Shown here one piece after another: positions 9,919 through 41,771 of a DNA stretch of 46,530 bases. A program made the position numbers and the translations under genes. The stretch comes from Planctomycetaceae bacterium (GTDB taxonomy: Bacteria > Planctomycetota > Planctomycetia > Planctomycetales > Planctomycetaceae), in assembly GCA_016795145.1 (NCBI GenBank), contig JAEUII010000100.1, forward strand, positions 1 to 46,530. Reading direction: 5' to 3'. Under the pieces are notes generated by a model. It ran no database searches. It had not been told where the DNA came from and saw nothing but the letters and a program-made list of their open reading frames with translations. The first letter of the stretch is position 1. Every line of letters begins with the position of its first letter.

Positions 9919-11817
9919 CTACTTCAGTGAAGAAGGATGACCCATTTGACTTTGACGAAAATTGTAAAGTCGGCGAAGCGCATCTCTGGTGTCGTCGTTT
10001 AATTCGCTCCCGGACTGTGCCGTCTGAGCAAGAAGTTGTTTCGACACAAGGTTCAGTCGTTTCTCTCGCCGTTCCAGAAGAGGTCCGAGGACCCTTTCCA
10101 GATGCGGTGGCATTCCACCTGTTGACTCCGGTCGGTTCGGCTGCTCCGACATGAGCCTTGCGATTCCCTTCTCCTCGGCGGAGTCCACCACTGCATTGAT
10201 CAGGCTCAGAAGTTCTGAGTCGGATTCTGCTGCAATGATGAGTCGGCCAAGTTCAGGAAGGTCTCCGTCTTCCTTCCACAGATCAATGCACAGTGCCAGC
10301 AGCCGCTGGTGCCGTGTGTTTTCAAAATCATCCGACCCAATTTTGTGTCGAATGACATCAATGGTTTCCGGGGTTGTCAGAATGATCTCCAGCAGCTCTC
10401 GTTCCGCCCGATCCAGAGCATTCTCCGGAGCGGCCTTCACGATCACCGGTTTTGACACCGCGTTACGCTGGAAGCTGACTGGTTTCTTTTGGTTCTTGTC
10501 TCGAAGTTCCATCAACTGCTGACGAGCGACTCGCTCATCCACCTGAACTCGCCAGCAAACGTTCCGAAGAATCAGGTCTTCACGAACACTGCCAGCCATT
10601 CCAGGAGCAGTTGCCAGAAATTCGACCATCTGGTTCAGCACCTGCTGACGACCCGCCACCGATGTGTTGCCGGATCGCTTCAGCACTGATTGCAACTTGT
10701 ATTCCCACGCCTCCGATGCAGTTTCCGTCAACTTGAGGAACTCATCTTTGGAGTGCTCCTCAAGGTAGTCCGCCGGATCCTTGCCTGACGGAACATTCAA
10801 GATTCGTAAATCAAGATCCTGTGCAATAAATTGGGATATTGAGCGTTCTGCGGCGCGTTGCCCTGCGTCATCAGAGTCGTAAACCAGGACCACTTTTTCC
10901 GCAAAACGCCTCAGAAATCGCACATGTTCTTCAGTCATCGCTGTTCCCAGCGTCGCCACCGCGTTGGTGACGCCCGCCTGGTGACAGGCAATGCAGTCCA
11001 TATATCCTTCCACAACGATTGCAGTCTTGCTGCGACGAATTGTGTCACGAGCCCGATCGAACGCATACATCATGCGACGTTTCTGAAAGATCGCGCTTTC
11101 CTGACTATTCCAATATTTCCCCCGGTCTTTGTCGTTGCGTCCGGGCAACACTCGTCCCCCAAACGCAACAATCCGTCCACGTTCGTCAAAGATCGGAAAC
11201 ACCAGACGATCCGCGAGATCGATTGCCGAGTACCCGAGACCGTTGTCGCGTTCCCGAATCAACCCAGCCGCAACCAGCTGAGCCGGTGTAAATCGTCCTC
11301 GAGCTTTCTCCAGAAACCACTGACGGTTTTCCGGATGATAGCCCAGCCGAAAGTTCCGAACCGTTTCCTCCGTTAACTTGCGCTTCTTGACATACTCCCG
11401 AGCATATGCCGACTGTTCACCAGTCCGCAGTGCTGTGTGCATCAGATTCGCAGCCCATTCCACTACAGCCAGAGTATCCGTCTTACTTGGGCCAGCCTGA
11501 TCGTTGCTGCGTGCTCGCTTTGGAATTTCCAGACGAGCACGTCGCGCGAGACTTTCTACTGCCTCCGGAAAAGTGACTTTCTCAGTTTCCATGACCCATC
11601 GAAAGCAGTCGCCACCAGCTTCACACACCCAGCAGCGATATGACTGTCGATCGGGGTACACAAAGAACGACGGGTTGTGGTCATCATGAAATGGACAGAG
11701 TCCAACGTACTGACGACCACCATGCTGCGGTTTCAGAGAGACGATCTCGGAAACCAGATCCACCAGGTTCGTGTTGGAACGAACCAATTCTTTGAAGTCA
11801 TCTCCTGGTCCCTGCAC
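9919..11817 (-). CDS. dnaG: DNA primase
   Basis: A 632-residue primase that makes RNA primers for replication. The N-terminal zinc ribbon has C41-x2-H44-x17-C62-x2-C65 (CPFH...CWVC). The catalytic core carries the TOPRIM motifs EGYMD and DSDDAG for metal binding. The C-terminal 150-200 residues are divergent and helical, where the DnaB-helicase interaction domain is expected. I chose GTG 11817 because AAAGGAG lies 7 bases upstream and the protein then starts just before the zinc ribbon; GTG 11820 is equally possible, and the open frame up to 11952 has no family match. The gene ends 75 bases before the rpoD start, so the two are an operon on the minus strand. Confidence 0.96.
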   Translation of the reverse strand: MQGPGDDFKELVRSNTNLVDLVSEIVSLKPQHGGRQYVGLCPFHDDHNPSFFVYPDRQSYRCWVCEAGGDCFRWVMETEKVTFPEAVESLARRARLEIPKRARSNDQAGPSKTDTLAVVEWAANLMHTALRTGEQSAYAREYVKKRKLTEETVRNFRLGYHPENRQWFLEKARGRFTPAQLVAAGLIRERDNGLGYSAIDLADRLVFPIFDERGRIVAFGGRVLPGRNDKDRGKYWNSQESAIFQKRRMMYAFDRARDTIRRSKTAIVVEGYMDCIACHQAGVTNAVATLGTAMTEEHVRFLRRFAEKVVLVYDSDDAGQRAAERSISQFIAQDLDLRILNVPSGKDPADYLEEHSKDEFLKLTETASEAWEYKLQSVLKRSGNTSVAGRQQVLNQMVEFLATAPGMAGSVREDLILRNVCWRVQVDERVARQQLMELRDKNQKKPVSFQRNAVSKPVIVKAAPENALDRAERELLEIILTTPETIDVIRHKIGSDDFENTRHQRLLALCIDLWKEDGDLPELGRLIIAAESDSELLSLINAVVDSAEEKGIARLMSEQPNRPESTGGMPPHLERVLGPLLERREKRLNLVSKQLLAQTAQSGSELNDDTRDALRRLYNFRQSQMGHPSSLK

Positions 11818-12591
11818 CACGATACTCCTTTGAGCGATCTGAAGATCCTGGTTCAGGGTTGAGGAAGAACGAACGTATGACTGAGGTCGCTGAACGACCG
11901 GTCCGAATTGTATGCCGCTGTCAGTCCGTTCCCAGTGTCCGCGCAGGAGCACAGGTGTTGGGAGTTATGGGCTGACCCCGGAGTATCTAAAAACAGCGGG
12001 AGACCTCTTCTGCTCAACCGCTGATGGGATTGGCTGGCGACGCCGGAGCTTGCTTCCGTTGGCCCCGTTTTGGCGTCGGGCAATTCTAACCGTCAACCGT
12101 TGCGGGTCAAGGACTTCGGGAAAATGCAAACCCGGAAACACGGGCCCCTGCAGGTTCAATCACGGCAACGTTTCAGGTCTTCGAAATTGGCGTTTTCCAA
12201 CCAGTGGTTTCAGCTTCGCGGATCGTCGTTTTGAAATCGACAGGCAGGCTTTTCGAAGCCGGTGCGCCAAACCAAATCTGCGGTCCGGACGCGAGCATTT
12301 CGCCCAAAGTCTTTGACAGATCGGGGAGTTTCGTCAAATCGATCAGTCAAAATGTTCGGTCTTTCGACACTGTTGCCAAGTCGAAGTTCACGATTCGCGA
12401 GAAAATTTCTGCAGTGTGAAGAAATCCGGGATCCGTGTGCGTCTACTTCCCGGACAGCGCGAGTTTGCACAGTGGGCGGACACACCTTTGGAGCAGATTT
12501 TTGGTCCTTTTGCGTGAGTCTCCTGAGCTGTTTTCTCTCGCCGCCCCGCCAACGCTCTCCATTCCTCCAAATTCCCGCCTCAGGCCAATCC
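11818..12591. other. Divergent intergenic region between dnaG and the ECF sigma gene
   Basis: 774 bases, the longest gene-free stretch in the window. Reading frames across it are rich in Arg, Ser and Pro, lack ribosome-binding sites and match nothing I know. The ECF frame stays open back to 12262, so part of 12262-12591 could be coding if translation starts earlier, but the extra sequence does not look like a sigma factor. The dnaG-rpoD and ECF promoters should both lie here; I cannot place them by eye. Confidence 0.5.
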
Positions 12592-13161
12592 TTGAAACCA
12601 CAACTCGAATCCATCTACCTCAGCCATCGACAGGCGTTGTTCAGCCTTGCCCTGTCGACAACCGGCTGCGCAGCGATGGCAGAAGATGCGGTCCATGAGG
12701 CATTTGTTCGATTGTGTCGTTTGTCCAGCTTTCCAGCCGCGCTGATGACTAAGGAATGTTCAAGTCAGAGTTCCGTTCAAAGTTCTGTCACCGAGGAGCC
12801 GTCGGACATCGCTCCTCAAATCGATCAGCTTGTTGCCTATGTCTTCGCAGCCGTTCGAAACGCGGCGATTGACGCAGGCCGTAAGCAACAGACTCAGAAG
12901 AAACTGGCCGAGTCCATTTTTCAAATGCGCGCTGCGAAGTCGACCGACGGGCTTCCGGAAAACAACGATCGCTCTGAAATGCTTCGCAAGGCTGTGGAAG
13001 CACTGGAACAACCGGCAAGGGAAGTCGTGATCCTGAAAGTTTACGGAGGACTTACGTTCGAACAAATCGGACAAGTCCTTGAGATCCCTGGAGCGACCGC
13101 AGCGACTCGTTATCGAAGAGCGTTGTCTCATTTGGAAGACGCACTGAGGAACAACCCATGA
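12592..13161 (+). CDS. ECF-type RNA polymerase sigma factor
   Basis: About 189 residues from TTG 12592, chosen because sigma-2 similarity begins right after it (LESIYLSHRQALFSLAL) and AGG lies 7 bases upstream; the start is uncertain. Region 2 shows AEDAVHEAFVRLCR and, after an unusual Ser/Gln-rich insert of about 35 residues, YVFAAVRNAAIDAGRKQ. Region 4 is clear: LEQPAREVVILKVYGGLTFEQIGQVL and a recognition helix GATAATRYRRAL. ECF sigmas are normally held by a partner anti-sigma until a signal arrives. The next gene starts inside this one's stop (ATGA at 13158-13161) and encodes a one-TM protein, the expected arrangement for a sigma/anti-sigma pair. The regulon is unknown; the downstream lipoprotein and CcsBA genes are candidates. 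Confidence 0.85.
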   Translation: MKPQLESIYLSHRQALFSLALSTTGCAAMAEDAVHEAFVRLCRLSSFPAALMTKECSSQSSVQSSVTEEPSDIAPQIDQLVAYVFAAVRNAAIDAGRKQQTQKKLAESIFQMRAAKSTDGLPENNDRSEMLRKAVEALEQPAREVVILKVYGGLTFEQIGQVLEIPGATAATRYRRALSHLEDALRNNP

Positions 13162-13781
13162 GTAGTGTCGACAGGAACGATCCAGGCATGTTGGAACTGA
13201 ACATGAGCGACATTGAACGCAGTCTTCGGGAATTGTCGCTGGCACCGGTCTCCGCCGAGCTGGATGCGCGAGTGCTTGGTGCGATTCGGGCGTCGTCAGG
13301 CTGTGGTTGCCATCAGGTCAATGGGTCGGCTGTCGTCCCTTCTGCCTGTGGAAACAGCGACTCGGCGGCGAGTGACTCGAAAGCAAATGAATCAATCCGT
13401 TCTTTTCGAAACAGCGGCGTGGTTTCCATCGGCTGGCTGGCCTGTGCCGTTTCATTGATCATCGGTGCAATCGCCGGCCGACTGTTCCTTCCAACGACAC
13501 TCCGTTCGCCAGCCCTGGAGATTGATGCCGCGAACGTTTTCACCACAGAGTTTCCGGGAGAAAGTGATCTGAGGACGAATAGCTCCGGTTCCGAGGTTTC
13601 CGCGTGGACCCTGGAGAGTGCCCTGAAAATGGGGTCAAAGATCGTCGAGTCTTCGCGATTTTCCCCTTCGGTTGGTGCTGTTGCCTGGGAGCAACAAACC
13701 GGAGAAATCTTTCGGGTTGGAACTCATCAGGCGGATCGTCGCTTCGCAATGTGCCGGGAATGCCATCGAGTTGGTGGCTGA
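13158..13781 (+). CDS. Single-TM putative anti-sigma protein with a C-terminal CxxCH motif
   Basis: A 207-residue protein translationally coupled to the ECF sigma gene by a 4-base overlap. Residues 1-45 are helical (ERSLRELSLAPVSAELDARVL), as in the short N-terminal part of planctomycete ECF partners; 46-86 are low-complexity with Cys49, Cys51 and Cys64. One membrane helix spans about 88-110. The C-terminal 95 residues are polar and end in C199-R-E-C202-H203, a perfect CxxCH, four residues before the end. CxxCH is the heme c attachment site when exported, but it can also bind zinc or form a redox disulfide. I infer an anti-sigma role from position only; the sequence shows no canonical HxxxCxxC zinc anti-sigma motif. 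The charge distribution does not settle topology. Confidence 0.7.
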   Translation: MSSVDRNDPGMLELNMSDIERSLRELSLAPVSAELDARVLGAIRASSGCGCHQVNGSAVVPSACGNSDSAASDSKANESIRSFRNSGVVSIGWLACAVSLIIGAIAGRLFLPTTLRSPALEIDAANVFTTEFPGESDLRTNSSGSEVSAWTLESALKMGSKIVESSRFSPSVGAVAWEQQTGEIFRVGTHQADRRFAMCRECHRVGG

Positions 13782-13942
13782 AACGAGAAGAACGAGCGAA
13801 CTCCGTGAAATTGCGGCCTTTCCTGCCTAGAATTTGCCAGACTGTGACTTTGCCCGGTTCGAGCTGACTTTGGCCATTGGCTGGTTTGCCGTACCGTGGA
13901 CCGTTGGTCTGTGCCTGTCCTGCCATTCAGAATCCCACCTCC

Positions 13943-14497
13943 ATGCAATTTGCTCGTATCAAAAGTCTCCTGTCGATCATCGCTCTGTGTTGGCTCGTCG
14001 GCTGTGCCGAGGATGCTGGCATTCGGGAGTATTCGGTGAAGGGAGATAACTCAAGGATCTTCACCTCGGACGTGCTTCGTTCTGAGTTTGGATCGATCCC
14101 ATTTCGCTGGGATGTCCCAAAGACGTGGAAGACCGCGCAGAACGATCAGTTCAGCAAGATGGCGTGGAGCGCAGGGCCGGACGATACACCTGCTCGAATC
14201 ACGATCAGCGATTTGCCCTCACAGGCCGGCATTGCTCCGCAGTTTGGTCGCTGGGCCGGACAAATCAATTTCTCCAGCAACGATCCAGCAGCACTGATGC
14301 AGCTGGTGCAGAATGTTTCTCTTGGCGACATGAACGGGCAGTGGATTGAACTGGTCGGCCCGTCGGAGACTATCCTGGGGATGATCGTTCCGCATAACGA
14401 CAGCTTATGGGTAGTGAAACTGCGAGCAGAAAAATCGGTTGCGGAAGAACTCAAGAAAGACTTTCGAGGTTTCTGTGAGTCATGGAAGTCGGGCTGA
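13943..14497 (+). CDS. Putative lipoprotein of unknown function
   Basis: A 184-residue protein from ATG 13943. Residues 1-21 are a lipoprotein signal (MQFARIKSLLSIIALCWLVGC) with LVGC as the lipobox and Cys21 as the lipid-bearing residue. The rest is soluble, with strand-like segments such as IPFRWDVPKTWKTAQND, MAWSAGPDDTPARITISDLP and GQWIELVGPSETILGMIVP. This resembles the fold of small periplasmic lipoproteins that planctomycetes encode next to cytochrome genes, but I cannot name a family. It lies 161 bases after the CxxCH protein and 119 bases before ccsBA, on the same strand, so it may belong to the same unit. It has no CxxCH of its own. Confidence 0.75.
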   Translation: MQFARIKSLLSIIALCWLVGCAEDAGIREYSVKGDNSRIFTSDVLRSEFGSIPFRWDVPKTWKTAQNDQFSKMAWSAGPDDTPARITISDLPSQAGIAPQFGRWAGQINFSSNDPAALMQLVQNVSLGDMNGQWIELVGPSETILGMIVPHNDSLWVVKLRAEKSVAEELKKDFRGFCESWKSG

Positions 14498-14616: not shown

Positions 14617-17600
14617 ATGTCGACAACGGCTGCACCTGGCGAATTTCGAGGCACAGGGAAGGACATTCTGGCAAGCTCGGATGCACTTGCTCTGAGAGTG
14701 ATTCAGGCACTGGCTTCACTGAAGCTGACGTGTGTCTTGTTTCTGCTGGCGATGGTCATCGTTTTTGTGGGCAGCCTCGCTCAAAGTCGTCGCGACGTCT
14801 GGCAGGTGATGGCGGAATATTTTCGATGCTACATTGCATGGATTGACCTGCAGGATTTGTTTCCACCGTCCATGTTCGGAAATTATGGAGCCGAGGTGGC
14901 GAAGGCCGCTGGTGTTTTGCGTTACATCCCGTTCCCCGGCGGCTGGACGATCGGCTGGCTGTTGCTCTCGAACCTGATCGCCGCTCATGCCTTGAAATTC
15001 AAAGTCCGAGCCACCGGAATGCGACTGGCTGCTGGTCTGGCATTCATAGTCGTGGGCCTGTTGATGATGTGGTTGATTGTGTACACGGGCAATCAGCAAA
15101 CCGGCGTGGAAGCGGCCAACTGGCTGCTTGACCCAACGGCCATTTGGTATCTGATGCAGTCGATTCTTGGCCTGGCCGGGATCTCCACGATTTTCGCCGG
15201 CTGCCTGAATAAGAAGAACGGAACAACAGCACGGGCTGTGATCATACTGGTAGGCACGGTGCTGACCGGCGTCTTTTTGTACTACGTCCTTGGTGGCGAA
15301 AAGACGCGGCTGAATCTGTCTTCCATGCGAATTCTCTGGCAGCTGCTGAAGGGCACTGCCTGCTCGATCGTCCTGTTGATTGGTTCCAACCTGTTGTTTG
15401 AAAAACGAGGTGGAATCGCGTTGCTGCACTTCGGCGTCGCGATGCTGATGATCAGCGAACTTCAGGTCGGTCTGGTTGCCAAAGAGAACATGGTCATGCT
15501 GACTGAAGGCGAGACGACTACGTTTGCTCGCGATGTCCGTGAACGTGAACTGGCCATCCTGTTTCGAAAGGAAAGTGGCGAAGAGGATTGGGTAACGATT
15601 TCGGAAAAGAAGCTGGTCGACGCGAGTAAGGCTGCGGGACCTGCATCAGACAAGGCGGAGACTTCATTCGCAAAACCTGGCGGTGAGGTGACTCCCGGGC
15701 AGATCATCAGCCTTGCCGACCTTCAGAGCCTTCAGCTTCCATTTGACCTTGCCGTCCGCTCTTTCGTTCGAAACAGCACACTGCGAGGAAAACAGCCTGG
15801 CGAAGAAGCGGAGCTGGCAAAGGGGCTGAGTTCCTTCGCGACGGTTGATGAAGTTCCGCCTGTGAATGGGATGGACAGTCAGCAGGATGAAAGCAGCGTT
15901 TTCGTGGACGTGATTGAACGAGCGTCCGGGAAGATTCTGGCATCCCTGCTGGTGTCGCAAAACGTCAGCGAAATGCAGGCACCCGGTCTGGCAGAGAAGG
16001 TCAGTGTCGCAGACAAAGACTATTACTTCTATCTCCGTTTTCAACGCAACTACAAGCCTTACGAAGTGAAGCTGATCGACGTCAGCCGCAAGAACTACGT
16101 TGGAACAGCAACACCTCGCGACTATCGATCAGAGATTGAGATTACCGAAGACGGCAGCACGGAAAAGTTCACCCTGTGGATGAACAATCCACTGAGGTAC
16201 AAGGGCGAGACTTTCTACCAGTCAGGCTATACGCCGCTGGAGAACGGCAAAGAAGCGACGACTCTTTCAGTCGTGCGTAACTCTGGCTGGATGCTTCCTT
16301 ACATCGCCTGCATGATCGTGAGCGTCGGTATGTTCGCTCAGTTTGGACAGACGCTGCTACGATTCCTGGACCGTTCGGATCGCAGAGTTCCAAAGGCTGC
16401 GACCGGTGATTCAGATGAAGATTCAGCGACACCCGCTGCGACGTTCCGCCCAGGTTTTGCACCGATTGCACCGAAAGAAATCGTGGAATCGCCGGAACCG
16501 AAGGCGGGTTGGATGGCTGCTTTCGGAATCCCGGCAATGGTGACGTTGATCTTCGTGGTCTACGTCGTGCGCGGCATGGCGCCGCCAAAGCCTGTCGAAA
16601 ACGCAATGAACCTCTATCGTTTTGCACAGTTGCCAATTGCCTGGAACGGACGTGCACAGCCAGTTGATTCACTCGCGCGAACTCAGCTGATGCTGATTTC
16701 ATCGAAATCGACGTTTGAAGCAGAACTGGAACCATGGCAGCTGAGCGATGACAAAGTCAGAGAAGCGATCATCAAGTCCGTTCAGGACGCCTGGCCGCAG
16801 GTGAATGTTGAGGAACTGAAATCTCTGAAGGGAACATACTCGGAATGGATTGCAAAGGTCATTGGTCTGACCGAAGCCGAGCCTGAAGCGGTTGAAGCGA
16901 GATTGCGTCCGCTGATGGTTCGCAAGGCACCAGCGGTCCACTGGCTTCTGGACGTGATGACTCGACCAGAGGTTGCGGCGCGACACCGAGTCCTGAAGAT
17001 TGAAGACGATAAGATTCTGTCTTTGCTGGGACTGCCGAAGCGGGGAGGTCTGACGTATTCGATTGCTGAAGTTCGCAAGAACCTTGACGACCTCGAGAAC
17101 ATCATGCGAAACGCCCTCGCAAAGAAGAACGCGAAGACTGAAGTTCTGGATGTGACTGAAGGTCGAGTGCTGACGCTGTTTGACAATCTGCGACGCATTA
17201 ACCAGCTGGCCGATGTGTTCGGGGTTCAGGAGACCGACAACGCTCTGGATTCCGCAATTACATCGTGGCGAATCCTGAGAGCACTCGGCAATGAGCCCGC
17301 TGTGATGGCCGTTCCGACGGGTTACGACGAAGACGAGCAGCGATCGTGGGAAACCTATGTCGCTGCCAGTGCGGTTTCCACAATGAACGAGCAGATGGCC
17401 GCTCAGGAAATCTCGAACTATGAACAGTTCGCCGAGTATCTGAAGAACAAGCGTCCGCTGGAGCTGGTTCAGCGCTCTGTGATCGGCAGTTACGGAATTC
17501 TGCTCAGCACTGCCAAGGAGACAGCTTCAGAAGGATCACCAGGTGAATCGGTTCGAAAGGCAGCAGAAGACGGGCTGAAGCGTGTGGATGATATTTACCT

Positions 17601-19038
17601 TCGAAACATCCTGACGATACTCGCCAAGGCTGACACGAAGAAGACACCGGAAGAAATTGCGAATGAGATTACGCTGGAGCAGGCACAGTCTGTTGCCGCT
17701 GAGCGAATTTCTTCCGACCTGTTTCAGGTGATCTCACTGCTGATGGAAGAGTCGCCGAATGACAAGCGGCTGACCCAGATCCGAAGTCGGCTTCAGGCAC
17801 TTGGCACGGAAGATTCACCTGCCTTGACAGCGGCTATGAACGAAGAGCTCGGACGCCTCGTGTGGGACGACCTGCAGGCTCGAGTTGGCCAGTTGATGCC
17901 CGGGGGAAAAGCCAATGCATCCTTCACCGCGTCAGCGAAATCCGTGACGGCGATTCTGGACGCGTGGAAGAAAGCCGACGTTGGCCTTTTCAATGAGTCT
18001 GTTACTGCGTATCAGACCGCCCTGAAAGAGAAGCCGCTTCCTCATGTGGATGCGAAGCGAGTTGCAGTCGAAGCATGGTTCAATTACTTCGAACCATTTT
18101 ACAAGACGGAGTTTATCTATCTGCCGATTCTCATTTTGACATTCGTCGGGTGGCTGCTGCCGCTGAATGGTTCTCTTCGAAAGACGTCGCTGTTCCTTCT
18201 GGTGTTTGGCCTTCTGCTCCATACGCTGGCGCTGGGATTGCGTATGTGGATTTCCGGCAGACCCCCAGTGACCAATCTCTATTCGTCGGCCATCTTCATC
18301 GGCTGGGCTGTCGTCATTATGGCGATGATTGTGGAACTGATCCTGAAGAATGGTATCGGCAATCTCGTTGGAGCAGCCTCAGGAGCAGGCACGCTGATGA
18401 TTGCTCATTATCTGGCTCGTGATGACGGTGATACGCTTGGAGTCATGCAGGCCGTGCTCGACACAGCCTTTTGGCTGGCGACTCACGTTGTTTGTATTAC
18501 TCTGGGATATGCGGCAACGTTCCTCGCCGGATTTCTGGGGCTGGGATACCTTGGACTCTGCGTGGCCGAGAAATTCACTGGCCCGCTCATCAACAAGTCC
18601 ACGAATACATCGATGCGAGTACTCACGGGACGAATGGTCTACGGCGTGCTCTGCTTTGCTCTGTTCTTCAGTCTTGTTGGTACCGTGCTTGGCGGTCTTT
18701 GGGCCGACGACTCATGGGGCCGATTCTGGGGATGGGACCCGAAAGAAAACGGCGCGATGCTGATCGTGATCTGGAACGCGGTGATCCTGCATGCTCGCTG
18801 GGACAAGATGGTTGCTGACTATGGTACCGCCGTCCTCGCCATGCTGGGCAACATCGTGACAGCATGGTCATGGTTTGGAGTCAATGAACTGGGCGCTGGA
18901 CTGCACGCGTACGGGTTCACCGAAGGACGCTTGTATGCTTTGTTCGTGTTCGTGGTGATCCAGGCGTGGGTGGTCGTTGGCTTTACCGTCTTTGCACGTT
19001 CACTGGCAAAGCCGGTTAACGCCTCCGCCGCCGGATAG
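14617..19038 (+). CDS. ccsBA: Fused cytochrome c synthetase CcsB-CcsA (System II)
   Basis: A 1473-residue membrane protein. The N-terminal ResB/CcsB part has membrane helices near 36-55, 110-130 and 136-157, a large extracytoplasmic region and a helix near 560. After a further helix near 633-655 comes about 500 mostly soluble, helical residues that open with LPIAWNGRAQPVDSLART, a segment also known in fused CcsBA proteins of other phyla. The C-terminal CcsA part has SGRPPVTNLYSS (about 1208), the heme-handling WWD-type motif WGRFWGWDPKENG (from about 1367) and GAGLHAYGF (about 1426). The protein would carry heme out of the cytoplasm and join it to CxxCH of apocytochromes. A PVC cytochrome follows after 98 bases and an ECF pair lies upstream. 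Confidence 0.92.
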   Translation: MSTTAAPGEFRGTGKDILASSDALALRVIQALASLKLTCVLFLLAMVIVFVGSLAQSRRDVWQVMAEYFRCYIAWIDLQDLFPPSMFGNYGAEVAKAAGVLRYIPFPGGWTIGWLLLSNLIAAHALKFKVRATGMRLAAGLAFIVVGLLMMWLIVYTGNQQTGVEAANWLLDPTAIWYLMQSILGLAGISTIFAGCLNKKNGTTARAVIILVGTVLTGVFLYYVLGGEKTRLNLSSMRILWQLLKGTACSIVLLIGSNLLFEKRGGIALLHFGVAMLMISELQVGLVAKENMVMLTEGETTTFARDVRERELAILFRKESGEEDWVTISEKKLVDASKAAGPASDKAETSFAKPGGEVTPGQIISLADLQSLQLPFDLAVRSFVRNSTLRGKQPGEEAELAKGLSSFATVDEVPPVNGMDSQQDESSVFVDVIERASGKILASLLVSQNVSEMQAPGLAEKVSVADKDYYFYLRFQRNYKPYEVKLIDVSRKNYVGTATPRDYRSEIEITEDGSTEKFTLWMNNPLRYKGETFYQSGYTPLENGKEATTLSVVRNSGWMLPYIACMIVSVGMFAQFGQTLLRFLDRSDRRVPKAATGDSDEDSATPAATFRPGFAPIAPKEIVESPEPKAGWMAAFGIPAMVTLIFVVYVVRGMAPPKPVENAMNLYRFAQLPIAWNGRAQPVDSLARTQLMLISSKSTFEAELEPWQLSDDKVREAIIKSVQDAWPQVNVEELKSLKGTYSEWIAKVIGLTEAEPEAVEARLRPLMVRKAPAVHWLLDVMTRPEVAARHRVLKIEDDKILSLLGLPKRGGLTYSIAEVRKNLDDLENIMRNALAKKNAKTEVLDVTEGRVLTLFDNLRRINQLADVFGVQETDNALDSAITSWRILRALGNEPAVMAVPTGYDEDEQRSWETYVAASAVSTMNEQMAAQEISNYEQFAEYLKNKRPLELVQRSVIGSYGILLSTAKETASEGSPGESVRKAAEDGLKRVDDIYLRNILTILAKADTKKTPEEIANEITLEQAQSVAAERISSDLFQVISLLMEESPNDKRLTQIRSRLQALGTEDSPALTAAMNEELGRLVWDDLQARVGQLMPGGKANASFTASAKSVTAILDAWKKADVGLFNESVTAYQTALKEKPLPHVDAKRVAVEAWFNYFEPFYKTEFIYLPILILTFVGWLLPLNGSLRKTSLFLLVFGLLLHTLALGLRMWISGRPPVTNLYSSAIFIGWAVVIMAMIVELILKNGIGNLVGAASGAGTLMIAHYLARDDGDTLGVMQAVLDTAFWLATHVVCITLGYAATFLAGFLGLGYLGLCVAEKFTGPLINKSTNTSMRVLTGRMVYGVLCFALFFSLVGTVLGGLWADDSWGRFWGWDPKENGAMLIVIWNAVILHARWDKMVADYGTAVLAMLGNIVTAWSWFGVNELGAGLHAYGFTEGRLYALFVFVVIQAWVVVGFTVFARSLAKPVNASAAG

Positions 19039-19136
19039 TCGAATTCTGTGACCTTCCCTGAAGCCTGGTCTTCCAATTCTCGCCGAGATAAACTCCTCGA
19101 TCGACATTGAAAAGTGTTTTGATCCAGGAGTTGGCG

Positions 19137-22100
19137 ATGGGCACATTCAGGCAGTGTTCTTGCGTTGCGTTTGTTTGCATCTTCTTCAACATTGCGACCG
19201 GAACATTCGCCGAAGATGTTGTGATCGGAGACCGCGTCCTGCATGTTGCTGACGGCTATGAGGTGAGTCTCGCCGTCCCTTCGTCGCTGGCAGAGCGCCC
19301 GATTGCCGTTGCACGCGATGAACAAGGTCGGCTGTATGTCACTGATTCAGGTGGCATGACCGAGCGAGCTGAAAAGCAGCTGGAAGAGAAGCCTCACCGC
19401 ATTCGCCGTTTGACTGATATCGACGGTGACGGGGTCTATGATCAATCCACACTGTTTGCCGACCGGATGATGTTCCCGGAAGGCTGCCTGTGGTTTCGCG
19501 GATCGCTGTATGTTGCCGCCCCTCCGGAGATATGGAAGCTGACAGACACAGATGACGACGGCGTTTGTGACAAGCGTGAAGTCTGGTTCAACGGAACGAC
19601 TCTGACAGGCTGTGGGAATGATCTTCACGGTCCATACGCAGGGCTCGACGGTCGGATCTACTGGTGCAAAGGGGCATTTGCAGAACAGAAACACGTCCTG
19701 TCGGATGGCGTTCCGCTGGTGACTCAGTCATCACACATTTTTCGTGCGAAGCCGGACGGCAGCCAGATGGAGAATGTTCTGACCGGTGGCATGGACAATC
19801 CGGTCAACGTGGCGTTTCTGAGGAACGGTGAGCGCTTTCTAAGCTGCACGTTCTTTCAGTTCCCCGAAGCCGGACGTCGTGACGGATTGATTCACGCAAT
19901 TTACGGCGGTGTCTACGGCAAGAAACACTCGTCCATCTATGCTCACCCCATGACGGGTGATGTCATGCCTGTGTTGAATCATCAGGGTGCCGCTGCACCG
20001 TGCGGTTTGATTGCCGGCAGTGACCAGCTGTTTGGAGGAGATCACGATCAACAGTTGTTTGCGTGCTACTTCAATCTGCATAAAGTCGTGCAACATCGGC
20101 TGATCCCGAATGGTCCTACGTATCGAACAGAAGATACGGATCTGTTGTCCTGTGATCATCCGGATTTTCATCCGACGGATGTCTTTGAAGATGCCGATGG
20201 AAGTCTGCTGGTTGTTGATACGGGCGGTTGGTACAAGGTCTGTTGTCCAACATCACAGCTCGCTAAGCCGGATGTACTTGGTGCTGTGTATCGAGTCCGC
20301 CGAAAAGGTCAGGCAACTGTCACGAACGGACTCGGCCAGGACATTGCGTGGAGGGACGCTGATGAAAAGACGCTGGTGGGACTTCTGGAAGATTCTCGCG
20401 TCTTCGTCCAGCGCCGTGCGGCTGATCTGCTTCGGCTCAAGGGACAAGCGGCGATTCCATTTCTGGCTGATACGCTGCTGGAGCACTCATCTGCGGATGT
20501 TCGCCTGCGAGCGGTTTGGGTACTTGCCGGCATTGATCATTCGGACGCTGGCCACGCAGCGGCATTGGCACTCGAAGATGCGGATGTTGATGTTCGTCAG
20601 GCTGCTGCTCATGCTGTCGGCCTGCATCGAGAGGCCAGGGCACTAGAACGCCTGATTGATGTGGCAAATGGACCGGAGGCTGGTCCGGCGCGAGCTGCGA
20701 TGGAGGCGATCGGACGGATTCGCAACGCCGATACTGTGTCACAGGTTTTTGAACTGCTTGCCAGATCAACAAATACTGAATTCGCTGCCGGAGGCGAACC
20801 ACTCGATGACGCCGCACGCATTATGGAGCATGCTGGAATCTATGCGTTGATTGAAACGGCCAGCGTGAAGGAGACACGAAAGGGCTTGCAGTCTGATTCA
20901 CCTGCGGTCCTGCGAGCAGCTCTGGTTGCGCTGGACCAGATGCGCGGCGGGGATCTCAAACCGGAAGACGTGATTTCTCAAATGTCTCACGCTGATCGCC
21001 GCGTGCGAGCCACTGCGGCGTGGATTGTGAACCATCATCCCGACTGGGGCGGTGCTCTCTCTCAGTATTTTGGCTCACGACTGGCCTCACTGAATTCACT
21101 GAACAAGGACGAGCAGACTCAGCTTCAGGAACTGCTTGGGAATCTGGCGACAGCACCCGAGATTCAGATGCTGCTCACATCCGGTCTGGCTGCGGACGCG
21201 AATGCCGACGTTCGCAGGTTTGTACTGAGAACTCTCTCGGCAACCGGTCTGTCGTCGACACCGACAGCATGGCTGGATGCACTTGCGAAGCTTGCCGCAA
21301 CAGAGGATGCCGAAGTGCTGTCTCTGGTGGTGAGCGCCGCCCGACACTTGCCTCAGCCAAAGGATGGTCATGCACAACTGCGTCAGGCTCTTGCAACGGT
21401 CGCTTCCAACGATGCGCTATCGCCCGAGTTGCGACTTTCCGCCATCGATGCCGCTGGGAATGGACTGAAGCTCGATGATAAGACGTTCGCACTGTTACGA
21501 CGAAATCTGAATCCTGAACTCCCCCTCGACCAGCGAAGCATCGCGGCGAATCGGCTTGCTGGTTCGGCTCTTTCGGAGGCTCAGGTCTTTACGCTTGTTG
21601 AATCACTTGGCGAAGTGGGCGCGATGGAACTTCCGAAGCTGCTGCCTGCTTTCGAACAGCATGCGTCAGAATCTCAGGGAGCAAGGCTGGTGGAAACGTT
21701 GAAGGCATCGCCTGGGTTTCGGGGACTTCGAGTGGATCTCATTCGGCCGTTGTTTGCAAAATATCCGGCGTCGGTTCAGTCGTCTTCGCAGGCTCTGGTT
21801 CGCATGCTGAACGCGAGCATCGAAGAACAAACGGCTCAGCTGGAGCAGTTGCTGAAGACCCTTCCCGATGGCGATGTGCGCCGAGGGCACGAGGTGTTCA
21901 TGAGTCGCAAAGCGGCCTGCAACACCTGTCACAAACTGGGATACGGCGGAGGACGGCTGGGGCCTGATCTGACGAATATCGGCAAGGCTCGTAATCGTCG
22001 AGACCTTCTTGAAGCCATTGTATTCCCCAGTGCCAGCATTGTTCGCGGGTATGAGCCGATCGCCGCCGAGCTGCAAGACGGACGCATTGTGGCGGGAATC

Positions 22101-22289
22101 ATCACGGGGGAAAATCAGTCCGAGATCGTCGTGTCTCAGGATGCCGTGAAGTCCGTCCACATCGCTCGAAGCGACGTCGTTCAGATACAGCCGTCGAATG
22201 TCTCGCCAATGCCCACTGGTTTGCTGACGTTACTGAGTGCTCAGGAAATTGCTGACCTCGTTGCGTTCCTGCAGAGTGATCAGCGATAG
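19137..22289 (+). CDS. PVC-type dehydrogenase/HEAT-repeat/cytochrome c protein, copy 1
   Basis: A 1050-residue secreted protein from ATG 19137 (AGGAG 6 bases upstream; an earlier in-frame start at 19107 lacks a site). The signal peptide covers about 1-25. The order of parts is a six-bladed beta-propeller of the PVC membrane-bound dehydrogenase type (about 30-390) with calcium-loop-like DIDGDGVYD and DTDDDGVCDKREV, HEAT-like helical repeats (about 420-880), and a C-terminal cytochrome c domain with C928-N-T-C931-H932 and GPDL after it; a later Met supplies the second heme ligand. Such proteins are typical of Planctomycetota and Verrucomicrobiota and are thought to oxidise sugars or related compounds outside the cytoplasm. 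The substrate is unknown. Position directly after ccsBA fits its need for heme attachment. Confidence 0.88.
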   Translation: MGTFRQCSCVAFVCIFFNIATGTFAEDVVIGDRVLHVADGYEVSLAVPSSLAERPIAVARDEQGRLYVTDSGGMTERAEKQLEEKPHRIRRLTDIDGDGVYDQSTLFADRMMFPEGCLWFRGSLYVAAPPEIWKLTDTDDDGVCDKREVWFNGTTLTGCGNDLHGPYAGLDGRIYWCKGAFAEQKHVLSDGVPLVTQSSHIFRAKPDGSQMENVLTGGMDNPVNVAFLRNGERFLSCTFFQFPEAGRRDGLIHAIYGGVYGKKHSSIYAHPMTGDVMPVLNHQGAAAPCGLIAGSDQLFGGDHDQQLFACYFNLHKVVQHRLIPNGPTYRTEDTDLLSCDHPDFHPTDVFEDADGSLLVVDTGGWYKVCCPTSQLAKPDVLGAVYRVRRKGQATVTNGLGQDIAWRDADEKTLVGLLEDSRVFVQRRAADLLRLKGQAAIPFLADTLLEHSSADVRLRAVWVLAGIDHSDAGHAAALALEDADVDVRQAAAHAVGLHREARALERLIDVANGPEAGPARAAMEAIGRIRNADTVSQVFELLARSTNTEFAAGGEPLDDAARIMEHAGIYALIETASVKETRKGLQSDSPAVLRAALVALDQMRGGDLKPEDVISQMSHADRRVRATAAWIVNHHPDWGGALSQYFGSRLASLNSLNKDEQTQLQELLGNLATAPEIQMLLTSGLAADANADVRRFVLRTLSATGLSSTPTAWLDALAKLAATEDAEVLSLVVSAARHLPQPKDGHAQLRQALATVASNDALSPELRLSAIDAAGNGLKLDDKTFALLRRNLNPELPLDQRSIAANRLAGSALSEAQVFTLVESLGEVGAMELPKLLPAFEQHASESQGARLVETLKASPGFRGLRVDLIRPLFAKYPASVQSSSQALVRMLNASIEEQTAQLEQLLKTLPDGDVRRGHEVFMSRKAACNTCHKLGYGGGRLGPDLTNIGKARNRRDLLEAIVFPSASIVRGYEPIAAELQDGRIVAGIITGENQSEIVVSQDAVKSVHIARSDVVQIQPSNVSPMPTGLLTLLSAQEIADLVAFLQSDQR

Positions 22290-26941: not shown

Positions 26942-27122
26942 TCGGCACCTGTGCAGAACATGCGTGTTGCCGAGGGGCGACCCTCGCTGTGTTTGGAATG
27001 TCTCTTCAGACTTGCCTATAGTACGAAGTGTTGAATCCGTCATTACCGGCCGTGCGAGTTTCCCGCTTTTTCCGGGGCTTTCGCAGGTCTCCTGCCCTGA
27101 ATTCCTCCCACCGGAGTTTTCC

Positions 27123-30100
27123 ATGAAGGCCGTTTCGTCCTTCGTTGCTGCTGTTTGTGGATCGTTGATCCTGACGTCGGCGCTGCACGCACAATCTCCC
27201 AACGATGATCCCTTCGCGCTAGGGGTTCGCAACACAGAAGCTGTGTCTGCTGAAGATCAGGCAAAGACGTTCACTGTTCCGGATGGCTTTCGAGTACAGC
27301 TCGTTGCCAGTGAGCCAGAGATTGCCAAGCCGATGAACCTGGCATTTGACTCAAAGGGGCGCCTGTGGGTCAGCAGTTCTCTGGAGTATCCTTTTGCGGC
27401 CGCTGCTGATGTTGTCCCTCGCGACACGATCAAGATTCTCGAAGACACCAACGGCGATGCTCGCGCGGACAAAGTGACGACCTTTGCCGACAAGCTAAAT
27501 ATTCCCATCGGACTGCTTCCTTACGGTGACGGAGTCATCTGCTTTGCCATTCCGAACATCTGGTACCTGCGTGACACCGACGGCGACAACGTGTGCGACA
27601 AGCGTGAAGTCCTCTACGGTCCTTTCGATACGACTCGAGATACGCACGGGATGTGCAACGCGTTTCGCCGCGGCGACGATGGCTGGATCTATGCATGTCA
27701 CGGATTCAACAACCGCTCTGAAGTGGCGGGCAGGGATGGCCATAAGGTGACTCTGACTTCCGGCAACACGTTTCGATTCCGTCCCGATGGTTCTCGCATC
27801 GAACTGTACACACAGGGGCAGGTGAATCCGTTTGGAATGTCGATCGACCACTTCGGAGATATCTACACCGCAGACTGTCACACGAAACCAGTGACGCTGC
27901 TGTTGCCCGGTGGTTGTTACGACAGTTTCGGGCGACCTCATGATGGCCTTGGTTACGTTCCCAATGTGATGGAACACCTGCATGGTTCGACGGCCATCGC
28001 AGCTTTGGCACTGGGTTCTGACACCCTGTTTCCAAAGGAGTTTGCGGACAACACGTTCGATGGAAACGTGATGACATCCCGCGTCAATCGCAACGTTTTG
28101 CAGCGACGAGGATCCAGCGTCAAGGCGGTTGAACAGCCGGACCTGTTGAGCAGCTCAGACCCGTGGTTCCGTCCTGTGGATCTTGTCGTGGGACCGGACG
28201 GTGCGTTGTATGTGGCCGACTTTTACAACCGAATCATTGGTCATTACGAAGTCGACCTGAAGCATCCAGGGCGAGACCGATTTCGAGGCCGCATTTGGCG
28301 AGTCTCCTGGTCCGGAGCGACAGAAGTAAAGCCCGGCCCGGCGGGATATGGTCCGGACTTCAGCAAGATGACAACGGAACAGCTCGTGGAATCGCTTGCA
28401 TCCGCGCCGGGTCAGGGAAAGCACATCGCTCGAGATGTGCTGGCTGATCGCCACAAGGATGTGCCAACATCTTTCCTCAAGCAGCTCTTGACCAACAAGT
28501 CGCATGATGTCCGTGTGACGGCTCTGCGTCTGCTGGGTCAGCGTGGGGAACTGGGCTTGAAGGAAATCGCAGACGCGGCAAAGGACTCCGAAGAATTGGT
28601 TCGAGTGCATGCATTCCGAGCATTGCGTGAGACCATTATTCCAGACGCAGAACGTTCGAACACTTCGGTCCTTCTTTTAAACGGATTCAAAGATCCGTCA
28701 CCAATGGTGCGACGTGTAGCCGCGGCCGCAGCATCACGGCATGTTTCCGCTGACCTCGCCGCGCCGTTGTTGCGACTTCTGCATACGACGGAATTGGGTG
28801 ACGTGCATCTTCGTCATCAGGTGCGAATTGCTCTGCGTGACCACCTGCTGGATGACACCGTACTTCAGTCGCTGGCGAAGTCGTCCGCATTGACGATGGA
28901 CGCCGTGGCCATATCTGAAATCTGTCTGGCGGTGAAAACAAAGGCCGCCGCCGAATACGTTGCCTCTCACCTGGATGCACTCGGCAAGTCGCAGCCTCAG
29001 CGGCTTCCGGAGTATCTTCAGTTTGCGGCCGCCTATGTGACTCCGGAACTTGCCGGTCAGGTTGTTCAGGCGATTCGTCAGCAGTTTGCTGGTCGAACCA
29101 GTGAGCAAATTCAGCTGCTCAATTCCATGCGACAGGGATTTTCTCAGCGTAATCTAACGTTGCCGACATCCGTGAATGCCTGGGCCAGTGGCACTGTCCT
29201 GCAGCTGTTGCAGATGAAGTCGGCAGCGGATCTTGGTGCGTTGAATCGACCTCCTGGAATGAGCTGGAGCTATCTGCCTCATCCGCAATCTTCCGACCCA
29301 GCTTCCTGCTGGGGAACAACAACCAGCCGACAGTGTGCAGACGGGACAGCCGGAATGGTTCTCTACAGCAGCTTCGAGGCCGGTGAAAAGCGAACCGGGC
29401 TCTGGCGATCCGCAGCGTTTGCGTGTCCGGAATCACTGAGCTTCTTCGTGGCAGGACACGATGGTTTTCCTGATCAGCCACTGAAGAAGGCCAACTTTGT
29501 TCGCTTGCTGGATGCCGAAACCGGAGCGATCCTGCGAGAAGCATCTCCACCTCGCAACGATGTGGCTCAAAAGGTCGAGTGGAATCTGAATGACCTGAAG
29601 GGAAAGAAGGTCCAGGTAGAACTCGTCGACGGTGATACAGCCACTGCTTACGCGTGGATGGCCGTTGGACGATTTTCTCTTGAGGGGCTCAATCCGTCCG
29701 ATCAGCTCCAGCGCATGCGAGACGCTGCGTCGCTTGTGGCGGACTTCCGACTCACACAGTTCCAGCCTGCACTCATGACGATGATTCGGACCGAAGGAAT
29801 CTCACGCAACGATCAGGCACAGTTTGCAACGGCGGTTGCTCGACTTCGAGGCGACTCGATGGCCTCCGCGGTCGCCAATGTGTTGCGACTGGCAGCCGTG
29901 AATGATGCTCTTGCGGCGACAGTGATTGACATTGTCGAGAAGGGCGATGCGGCAGCGGTTGGCAAGACTCTGGAATCTGCTTTCCAACTGGCAACATCGA
30001 CGGAGCAACAGGTGCTTGCGGAACAGCTGGCTTCTGACGTGCGAGGTGCAGAAGAGCTGGCAAGGCTGATGGAGAATGGTAAAGCGTCCGCGAGGTTGCT

Positions 30101-30674
30101 GACACGTCCTTCCGTGCAGCAGAAGCTCCTGGCGATTTCCCCCGAACCACTCAAGCAGCGATTCCTCTCACTCGCCGAAAAACTACCGAGCGAGGACGGC
30201 GTGATTGAGCAACTGATTGCCGATCGCCTGAAGGCAGTGTCGAACGCACAGGGTGATGTCGCGGCTGGCAAGGAATTGTTTAAGAAGAACTGTCAGGTGT
30301 GTCATCAGATCGCTGGCGAAGGAAAGCAGGTGGGGCCGAACCTGGACGGCATCGCCAATCGAGGTCTGCAGCGCATGGTGGAAGATGTTCTGGCTCCGAA
30401 TCGCAACGTGGACGTCGCGTTTCGAACAACCACGATCGTCACAACCGAAGGCAAAGCGCTGAGTGGGTTGTTGAAGGAACTGGAAGGCGGCCGGTTCCTG
30501 CTAATCGACAGTCAGGCAAAAGAAACCACTTTGACCAGCGACGACATTGAAGAACGCAAACTGGCCACTTCGTCACCGATGCCCGCGAATTTTGGGGAAT
30601 CACTGACCGCTGATCAGTTTCGCGATCTGATGAGCTTCCTGCAGACTCAGAAAAACGTGGTTGTTCATCCGTAG
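27123..30674 (+). CDS. PVC-type dehydrogenase/HEAT-repeat/cytochrome c protein, copy 2
   Basis: A 1183-residue secreted protein from ATG 27123 (GGAG 6 bases upstream). Residues 1-23 are a signal peptide ending LHA-Q. The order is a PVC dehydrogenase beta-propeller (about 45-400) with DTDGDNVCDKREV and WFRPVDLVVGPDGALYVADFYN, HEAT-like repeats (about 430-700), a segment with few repeats that contains a jelly-roll-like WRSAAFACPESLSFFVAGHD (about 760-860), more helices, and a terminal cytochrome c domain with C1057-Q-V-C1060-H1061 and VGPNLDGI. It is longer than copy 1 by the extra middle domain and only distantly similar outside the propeller and cytochrome parts. Function would be extracytoplasmic oxidation with electrons passed to its own heme. 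It stands alone, divergent from ybeY. Confidence 0.88.
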   Translation: MKAVSSFVAAVCGSLILTSALHAQSPNDDPFALGVRNTEAVSAEDQAKTFTVPDGFRVQLVASEPEIAKPMNLAFDSKGRLWVSSSLEYPFAAAADVVPRDTIKILEDTNGDARADKVTTFADKLNIPIGLLPYGDGVICFAIPNIWYLRDTDGDNVCDKREVLYGPFDTTRDTHGMCNAFRRGDDGWIYACHGFNNRSEVAGRDGHKVTLTSGNTFRFRPDGSRIELYTQGQVNPFGMSIDHFGDIYTADCHTKPVTLLLPGGCYDSFGRPHDGLGYVPNVMEHLHGSTAIAALALGSDTLFPKEFADNTFDGNVMTSRVNRNVLQRRGSSVKAVEQPDLLSSSDPWFRPVDLVVGPDGALYVADFYNRIIGHYEVDLKHPGRDRFRGRIWRVSWSGATEVKPGPAGYGPDFSKMTTEQLVESLASAPGQGKHIARDVLADRHKDVPTSFLKQLLTNKSHDVRVTALRLLGQRGELGLKEIADAAKDSEELVRVHAFRALRETIIPDAERSNTSVLLLNGFKDPSPMVRRVAAAAASRHVSADLAAPLLRLLHTTELGDVHLRHQVRIALRDHLLDDTVLQSLAKSSALTMDAVAISEICLAVKTKAAAEYVASHLDALGKSQPQRLPEYLQFAAAYVTPELAGQVVQAIRQQFAGRTSEQIQLLNSMRQGFSQRNLTLPTSVNAWASGTVLQLLQMKSAADLGALNRPPGMSWSYLPHPQSSDPASCWGTTTSRQCADGTAGMVLYSSFEAGEKRTGLWRSAAFACPESLSFFVAGHDGFPDQPLKKANFVRLLDAETGAILREASPPRNDVAQKVEWNLNDLKGKKVQVELVDGDTATAYAWMAVGRFSLEGLNPSDQLQRMRDAASLVADFRLTQFQPALMTMIRTEGISRNDQAQFATAVARLRGDSMASAVANVLRLAAVNDALAATVIDIVEKGDAAAVGKTLESAFQLATSTEQQVLAEQLASDVRGAEELARLMENGKASARLLTRPSVQQKLLAISPEPLKQRFLSLAEKLPSEDGVIEQLIADRLKAVSNAQGDVAAGKELFKKNCQVCHQIAGEGKQVGPNLDGIANRGLQRMVEDVLAPNRNVDVAFRTTTIVTTEGKALSGLLKELEGGRFLLIDSQAKETTLTSDDIEERKLATSSPMPANFGESLTADQFRDLMSFLQTQKNVVVHP

Positions 30675-40682: not shown

Positions 40683-41771
40683 GTGCAGATACTTGGGCTC
40701 GATATCGGCGGAGCGAACATCAAGGCGGCCACGTTTGATGGAGTTTCGGAGTGCATTCCATTTGCGTTCTGGAAGAATCCTGATGGACTGGTCGAAGCCT
40801 TGCAGGGACTCACGGTTCTGAATGGACAACGACCTGCGTTGGTCGGTCTTACGATGACAGCGGAACTCGCGGACTGCTTCGAGACGCGTGCTCAGGGTGT
40901 GGAGTTTGTCATCCGAAAAGTCGTTGAGGTTTTCCCTGAGTGTCCTGTTCGCGTGTGGATGACATCAGGGGAATTCGCGGAGCCGGATGATGCCATTGAG
41001 TTGTGGACTCTAACGGCCGCGGCCAACTGGCATGCTCTTGCGACATGGGCTGGACGAGCCGTCCCGCAAGGGCCGGCCCTGCTTGTTGATATTGGTTCCA
41101 CGACGACGGATGTGATTCCGCTGGCCGATGGTCTGCCGTTGCCGGATGGCCTGAATGATCTTCAGAGACTTGCGAACAATGAACTCGTCTATTCCGGCGT
41201 GCGGCGAACTCCGGTCTGCGCGATCGTCCCCTGTGTTCCCCTGGAAGATACGACCATCGGCATCAAGGAAGTTCATGTGCCGCTCGCGGCCGAGCTGTTT
41301 GCAACGGCCGCTGACGTGCATGTGGTGAATGGTGATCTTGCAGAAAATTCGGAAGACTGTGACACGGCCGACAATCGTCCGCTGACTCGCCACTACAGCC
41401 TGAACCGACTGGCTCATCAGTTGTGCTGTGACAGTACAGATCTTTCGGAAACGCAGCTGGTCAGCATCGCAGCTTACATTGGTGAGCAGCAGTTGCAGCA
41501 GATTCAAACAGCGATCGAAAACCGACTGATGGCCGTTCGGAAGAAGTCCGAAGTGCCGAAGAACGAACCCGTCAGAATCCTGATCAGCGGTAGCGGAAGC
41601 TGGCTGGCGGAACGAGCATTTTCGCAGATGGACTCGGGCGGCATTCACTCCGTCTCTGATTTGTCGGCCATGTTCGTTCGAAATGTCAGCACCTGCGCGG
41701 CTGCGTTTGCGGTGGCACGACTGGTGAGTGAACGCTGCTCGGACGATCTGCTACCATGGAGTCAGCTCTAA
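40683..41771 (+). CDS. Hydantoinase/oxoprolinase-like protein of the H4MPT-linked C1-transfer type
   Basis: A 362-residue protein of the actin-like ATPase (ASKHA) fold. Phosphate loop 1 is GLDIGGANIKAATF (5-18), phosphate loop 2 is VDIGSTTTDVIPL near 138-150, and the late nucleotide site is ISGSGSWLAE near 300. This set with the middle NELVYSGVRRTPVCAIVP matches the family of uncharacterised proteins tied to tetrahydromethanopterin (H4MPT) C1 transfer, related to archaeal MfnF of methanofuran synthesis. Planctomycetes are among the bacteria with this pathway, where it is used in formaldehyde oxidation. No other H4MPT gene is in the window. GTG 40683 is my start; a TTG at 40656 is possible. 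The DUF1501 gene follows after 36 bases. Confidence 0.82.
   Translation: MQILGLDIGGANIKAATFDGVSECIPFAFWKNPDGLVEALQGLTVLNGQRPALVGLTMTAELADCFETRAQGVEFVIRKVVEVFPECPVRVWMTSGEFAEPDDAIELWTLTAAANWHALATWAGRAVPQGPALLVDIGSTTTDVIPLADGLPLPDGLNDLQRLANNELVYSGVRRTPVCAIVPCVPLEDTTIGIKEVHVPLAAELFATAADVHVVNGDLAENSEDCDTADNRPLTRHYSLNRLAHQLCCDSTDLSETQLVSIAAYIGEQQLQQIQTAIENRLMAVRKKSEVPKNEPVRILISGSGSWLAERAFSQMDSGGIHSVSDLSAMFVRNVSTCAAAFAVARLVSERCSDDLLPWSQL

Follow-up and report, generated by a model that had tools for sequence, protein, structure and literature searches.

A Putative Anti-Sigma Factor with a Candidate Heme c Site Encoded beside a Predicted Cytochrome c Synthase in Planctomycetaceae

Gene Content of the Locus

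The window, by which we mean the whole stretch of 46,530 nucleotides that was analysed (contig JAEUII010000100.1 of the Planctomycetaceae bacterium assembly GCA_016795145.1), carries the features listed in Table 1. The ORF at the head of the operon encodes an ECF sigma factor, with scores above both Pfam cut-offs: Sigma70_r2 at 33.5 bits (cut-off 24) and Sigma70_r4_2 at 38.5 bits (cut-off 25.7). The start codon of this gene is uncertain, and the homologue alignments begin at TTG 12592. Between regions 2 and 4, its product contains about 28 inserted residues with no counterpart in the nine aligned homologues. The ATG of the second ORF shares four bases (ATGA) with the stop codon of the ECF gene, which confirms the 4-base overlap reported in the preliminary description; such coupling to the ECF gene is a trait of anti-sigma factor genes. 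The same overlap was found in 11 of the 12 relatives read, the exception being locus L108, in which the ECF frame is interrupted. At this locus, in genome G203, the ECF gene has an in-frame stop, and at locus L111 of G329 the ECF gene is shortened and the anti-sigma gene is frameshifted; these defects may reflect either decay or assembly error.

Table 1: Predicted features of the operon and its neighbour genes (positions in the window).
Feature	Position	Strand	Basis
Predicted ECF-type promoter of the operon, TGAAGAA-N16-CGTCTA	12417..12445	+	Shared pattern in front of ECF genes
ECF sigma factor gene, TTG start inferred from homologues	12592..13161	+	Pfam; alignment A3
Putative anti-sigma factor gene with C-terminal H-x8-CxxCH	13158..13781	+	207 aa, ATG start
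N-terminal part, residues 1-86, presumed cytoplasmic and sigma-binding	13158..13415	+	AlphaFold2 on A4; function inferred
Single predicted membrane helix, residues 88-110	13419..13487	+	Hydropathy; modelled helix 91-110
Candidate heme c site H190...C199-x2-C202-H203 and last residues	13725..13778	+	Four residues invariant, 21/21
Sigma-70-like promoter GTGAAA-17-TAGAAT ahead of lipoprotein-like gene and ccsBA	13805..13833	+	1 found, 0.7 expected from shuffles
Lipoprotein-like gene ahead of ccsBA	13943..14497	+	LVGC lipobox-like start; homologues upstream of ccsBA
CcsBA, ResB-fused System II cytochrome c synthase	14617..19038	+	Pfam ResB and Cytochrom_C_asm over cut-off; 1473 residues

The protein encoded by the second ORF (13158-13781) ends in FAMCRECHRVGG, with the tail H190-x8-C199RECH203RVGG. 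The preliminary description had numbered C199, C202 and H203 correctly and placed them within the last nine residues, and it had missed H190, which proved to be invariant. It had also taken the product for a one-TM protein, in agreement with the hydropathy profile: a single hydrophobic segment exceeded the set threshold (residues 88-106 in the window protein), and one such segment was found in each of the 21 rows of alignment A4. The AlphaFold2 model built from A4 was poor overall (mean pLDDT 57), with helices at residues 9-25 and 33-46 of the N-terminal part and a local pLDDT of 70-89 for residues 11-50. When this model was compared to the PDB with Foldseek, one match at E 4.8 was returned and nothing useful was learned; a profile search of PDB sequences gave nothing at E <= 1.

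No known anti-sigma domain was matched in Pfam or NCBIfam. A FecR domain of the FecR/HasS type was not found, the protein having no Pfam match of any kind at E <= 1, and the H-x3-C-x2-C of zinc anti-sigma (ZAS) domains is not a conserved feature ahead of the membrane helix, where the Cys and His columns vary. No cytochrome c family of Pfam or NCBIfam reached its curated cut-off with the window protein.

Conservation of the C-Terminal Tail

At E <= 0.01 the list of protein matches had 11 entries, among them a sequence with 99% identity to the window protein. With the window protein itself counted, the close alignment has 12 rows and the wide alignment A4 has 21, the other sequences of A4 being 17-81% identical to that protein. 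The preliminary description had named close homologues without CxxCH as a refutation of its idea; none was found, the C, C and H of the motif being kept in 12/12 rows of the close alignment and in 21/21 rows of the wide one. Only nine columns of A4 are invariant: E20, L35, G103, G107, F185, H190, C199, C202 and H203. H190 lies nine residues ahead of C199, with eight intervening residues in every row. The tail (H190, C199, C202 and H203, all in 21/21 rows) has the combination seen in c-type cytochromes of CxxCH and a conserved candidate axial ligand.

A CxxCH by itself is weak evidence, as the window ORF 9919-11952, which we take to be primase-like, also has one; for the tail a chance occurrence was rejected, since the motif is invariant across A4. 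Elsewhere the window protein has five Cys/His positions, none of them conserved in A4, and C49, C51 or C64 as the sensor was rejected for lack of conservation. Conservation in the nearer rows is much higher over the final 33 residues than over the remainder of the protein, with 26/33 against 47/150 positions for L008 and 18/33 against 24/115 for L140.

By genome searches the protein family was traced to three genera, all within a single taxonomic family: g1 (that of the window), g45 and g58. We call g45 the Fuerstiella genus, because G106 carries a protein named Fuerstiella marisgermanici, a planctomycete, and because a protein of G275 equals a database protein named Fuerstiella sp. At E <= 1e-17, matches were obtained in 14 of 397 genomes of the class and, in addition, in G012, which was absent from the matches listed there. 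The exact tail used as a DNA pattern, which is too strict, retrieved G000 (the genome of the window), G004 and G005 only among 297 class genomes, and no relatives came from scanning the genome contigs with P0001 or A1.

In six genomes of the Fuerstiella genus the tail contains an extra CxxCH ahead of the invariant His (in P0014, CLQCH and then H-x8-CMWCH). Over the seven two-CxxCH rows the whole tail is hardly better kept than the remainder (10/28 against 30/120 in P0014, for example), the better-kept positions being only the four ligand positions and F185. Five sequences, P0002, P0007-P0009 and P0012, were left out of A4 as near-copies or a fragment, and the tail is present in all of them; the frameshifted gene of G329, also left out, and P0018, outside A4 as well, have both CxxCH. 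All six two-CxxCH proteins scanned gave sub-threshold matches to Pfam Cytochrome_C7, with E from 7.8e-5 to 0.013 and a best score of 22.9 bits where the cut-off is 24.8. This weak likeness and the second motif speak for heme c in the Fuerstiella genus, and by homology in the window protein, rather than for zinc or a thiol pair.

Two of 30 weak matches (E 2e-8 to 0.01) were followed up, and both belong to related pairs that lack the CxxCH tail. In G059 (genus g39) a related ECF gene with identical promoter spacing is followed by a gene for an anti-sigma-like protein without CxxCH, and in G404, from another family of the class, a more distant ECF gene is followed by one for an N-terminally similar protein, again without CxxCH. 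These two cases count against CxxCH as a universal property of such partners, and a CxxCH protein stays within the gene group. The gene next after the anti-sigma-like gene of G059 (L142, 5203-5967) encodes a PDZ protein with two C-terminal CxxCH, a recurrence of the heme c theme on a separate polypeptide, and the third gene in G404 (L154, G404:C135, around 40843-41082) a protein with a single CxxCH. No ECF gene of the group was present in the stretches read around G083 and G322, two weak matches from another of the genome searches.

Linkage of the Pair to ccsBA

The preliminary description was right about the CxxCH and had left out the neighbouring ccsBA gene. The product of 14617-19038 is read as CcsBA, on its sequence the predicted enzyme that joins heme to CxxCH. 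It combines ResB (32.8 bits, cut-off 24.6) and CcsA-type domains (Cytochrom_C_asm, 67.5 bits, cut-off 29.9) with the WWD-type motif WGRFWGWDP at residue 1367, as is characteristic of System II CcsBA proteins; the NCBIfam CcsB equivalog cut-off was not reached (129.6 versus 187.6 bits). In all 11 genomes searched, PF01578 was matched by two genes only, the long ccsBA and one short gene. The second PF01578 protein of the window's genome lies at G000:C258:9131-9721, in an open frame of 334 aa. Two large proteins encoded near ccsBA (19107-22289 and 26964-30674) have one CxxCH each towards the C-terminus and are plausible substrates of CcsBA.

The order ECF, anti-sigma, lipoprotein-like gene and ccsBA was found in six g1 genomes (G000, G001, G004, G005, G012 and G015, the ccsBA of the last running past the contig end) and in both g58 genomes found. 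In G106, G203, G275 and G329, all of the Fuerstiella genus, an opposite-strand gene that we label hydrolase-like is inserted between the anti-sigma and lipoprotein-like genes. The pair is unlinked in G317, where ccsBA is on another contig, and in G331, where the ccsBA, likewise on another contig, is more divergent, with 36% identity over the longer of its pieces. Of the 14 systems, among which we count G329 with its shortened ECF and frameshifted anti-sigma genes, 12 have the pair linked to ccsBA: in eight the linkage is direct, and in four the inserted gene intervenes. In two g1 genomes, G011 and G014, a remnant of the anti-sigma gene persists at the equivalent place; no ECF gene of the group was found in G011, as expected if both genes work together.

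The pair is not a constant companion of the synthase. We found ccsBA in 75 of 99 genomes and sampled the stretches upstream of it from 40 of these, beyond those already analysed. Two of these stretches were under 1 kb and the others about 3-4.5 kb, so that a more distant ECF gene could escape; an ECF match was obtained in G106 only and an anti-sigma remnant in G014 only. In G022, which has a similar hydrolase-like gene, reading 6.5 kb more gave no ECF match. Since many genomes of the family have ccsBA without the pair, the pair is an optional addition to ccsBA. The lipoprotein-like gene precedes ccsBA in 37 of the 40 stretches, nearly all of them without the ECF pair, and its product is likely an unnamed partner of System II. 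Its LVGC start we take to be a lipobox; it had no NCBIfam match, and a longer ORF at the same place had no Pfam match.

Predicted Promoters of the Operon

An element of the form TGA[AG]-N19/20-CGT[GC]T was present within 230 bases of 13 of the 14 ECF genes examined, a count that is descriptive since the element was derived from the same sequences. The 14 genes include the related ECF gene of G059 and exclude that of G331, where the contig begins. The TGA-to-CGT spacing is 23 in 12 genes and 24 in G203, and no element was seen in G234; the Fuerstiella marisgermanici element reads TGAAGAA-N16-CGTGTT. When a strict version (TGAAKRA-N16-CGTSTA) was run over 16 genomes, 10 matches were obtained in 8 of them, against 17 for the reversed pattern used as a control in the same genomes (0 in G000), so the strict pattern is not enriched genome-wide. 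It occurs once, ahead of the ECF gene, in G000, G004, G005 and G015, three times in G012, with one of the three ahead of the ECF gene, and as single matches away from the ECF gene in G106, G203 and G007. The uniqueness of the strict promoter to the operon in four g1 genomes suggests that the sigma factor likely controls its own operon and perhaps little else; looser targets would be missed by this pattern.

Between the anti-sigma and lipoprotein-like genes lies a spacer of 161 bases, in which the folding of the RNA was unremarkable (z 0.51); a simple scan between 12300 and 14700 revealed no terminator-like site. Elements similar to the sigma-70-like promoter of Table 1 were found at the equivalent place in relatives, including G014 with its decayed anti-sigma gene. 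With a promoter of its own for ccsBA, and a similar one in G014, the sigma factor need not drive ccsBA. An ECF-type promoter ahead of the lipoprotein-like gene and ccsBA was not established, none of 21 stretches in which the pair is not adjacent or a gene is inserted having matched; at two loci of the Fuerstiella genus a CGTGTA-like element was seen by eye with no TGAA at the right distance.

Interpretation and Alternatives

The preliminary description had proposed that the CxxCH might attach heme c, bind zinc or cycle as a thiol pair. Heme c emerges as the best supported of the three, owing to the invariant H190, the two-CxxCH version with its weak cytochrome c7 likeness and the linkage to CcsBA, and the other two are less so. 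Purified CcsBA is reported to attach heme in vitro to CXXCH peptides of 9, 11, 16 and 20 residues and to require both thiols and the histidine of the motif (PMC8112865). Given the acceptance of 9-mers, a substrate can be as short as the tail, and the conserved residues include those that attachment depends on. We consider the chances about even that the protein is a membrane-anchored anti-sigma factor with a heme c site, likely filled by CcsBA, and that heme attachment outside the cytoplasm sets whether the sigma factor is held or released. More tentatively, with a probability somewhat short of even, the heme c synthase of the cell could use the outer tail as a reporter substrate, covalent attachment itself being the signal and the pair a transcriptional feedback sensor of cytochrome c maturation; the version in the Fuerstiella genus would be diheme.

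In the mechanism that we propose, the N-terminal part would bind the sigma factor in the cytoplasm and the tail would lie outside, where CcsBA would attach heme via C199 and C202, with H203 as the proximal iron ligand and H190 as a candidate distal one. With enough heme and CcsBA activity the tail would be filled and the anti-sigma factor stable; if heme supply or CcsBA ran short, the empty tail would make the anti-sigma factor unstable or open to proteolysis. The freed sigma factor would then transcribe its own operon and read on into the lipoprotein-like gene and ccsBA, which would be expressed anyway from its own promoter, the ECF sigma factor presumably adding to this by read-through. In the Fuerstiella genomes with the inserted gene any effect on ccsBA would need another route. 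That the empty tail releases the sigma factor is a guess; release by the filled tail is the alternative.

The main rival to a sensor of maturation also needs covalent heme. It takes the heme c of the tail (two in the Fuerstiella genus) as permanent and as sensing the redox state or a gas outside, CcsBA being a maturation enzyme only and the linkage an expression of that need. The fixed spacing of the invariant H190 is in keeping with six-coordinate heme, the two-CxxCH tails weakly resemble cytochrome c7, and ccsBA has a promoter-like element of its own. The linkage in 12 of 14 systems, however, points to CcsBA as target or input, and to our knowledge c-type proteins in general are unlinked to their synthase gene; we judge this rival rather unlikely.

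The tail might otherwise be a zinc site or a reversible thiol pair acting as a redox sensor: two histidines together with a C-x2-C pair could coordinate zinc, and RsrA and ChrR exemplify anti-sigma factors of the thiol and zinc types. A thiol switch has no need of an invariant H203 or H190, however, and the Fuerstiella form has two CxxCH with a likeness to cytochrome c7. The linkage to a heme c synthase would also be left unexplained, and C, C and H are the very requirements of CcsBA (PMC8112865), all of which makes a tail without heme improbable. It is still less probable, to the point of being very doubtful, that the protein is no anti-sigma factor and instead a small membrane protein, either cytochrome-like or accessory to CcsBA, which owes its place in one operon with the ECF gene to history. 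No known anti-sigma domain was matched and the N-terminal part is short, but the overlap with the ECF gene recurs in 11 of 12 relatives, the CxxCH-less ECF partners of G059 and G404 have similar N-terminal parts, and both genes are missing in G011 apart from the remnant.

Relation to Known Systems and Significance

Like other pairs of ECF and membrane anti-sigma factors, the pair has overlapping genes, one predicted membrane helix and an ECF-type promoter element ahead of the sigma gene; unlike them, it has an invariant H-x8-CxxCH at or close to the end of the outer part and matches no anti-sigma domain of Pfam or NCBIfam. With the zinc anti-sigma factors RsrA and ChrR it shares Cys and His residues as the candidate sensor. 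Their H-x3-C-x2-C sits in the cytoplasmic sigma-binding domain, whereas here H-x8-CxxCH follows the membrane helix and no Cys/His position ahead of it is conserved. Multiheme c-type cytochromes (cytochrome c7 / c3) also combine CxxCH with a separate invariant His, and Cytochrome_C7 was weakly matched, but here one or two motifs are carried by a membrane-anchored putative regulator and all matches are below the curated cut-off. A covalent heme in a signalling protein, predicted here, is found in the c-type heme chemoreceptors and PAS sensors of Desulfovibrio and Geobacter, which are chemotaxis or kinase-type sensors; we know of no c-type heme sensor tied to a sigma factor or to a synthase.

Anti-sigma factors that free their ECF sigma factor in response to heme are described in HasI/HasS and HxuI/HxuR (PMC12670364), where heme is sensed by a receptor (HasR, HxuA) acting on the anti-sigma factor; in the present case the anti-sigma factor itself would bear the heme c site and the neighbour is a predicted heme c synthase. 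In the open-licence PMC literature we found no anti-sigma factor that itself carries a heme c site, nor one that regulates ccsBA, nor any described bacterial regulator that notices a shortfall of cytochrome c maturation or of outside heme supply; the heme-responsive anti-sigma factors that we met there (PMC12670364, PMC11442138 and PMC8458880) are of the HasS/HxuR kind, in which the receptor senses heme.

As CcsBA acts on nine-residue CxxCH peptides in vitro (PMC8112865), the idea is testable with a short peptide and purified enzyme. If it holds true, transcription would give a direct readout of heme attachment, the sensor being at the same time a CxxCH substrate, and the sigma/anti-sigma pair would be a genetic reporter of CcsBA activity.
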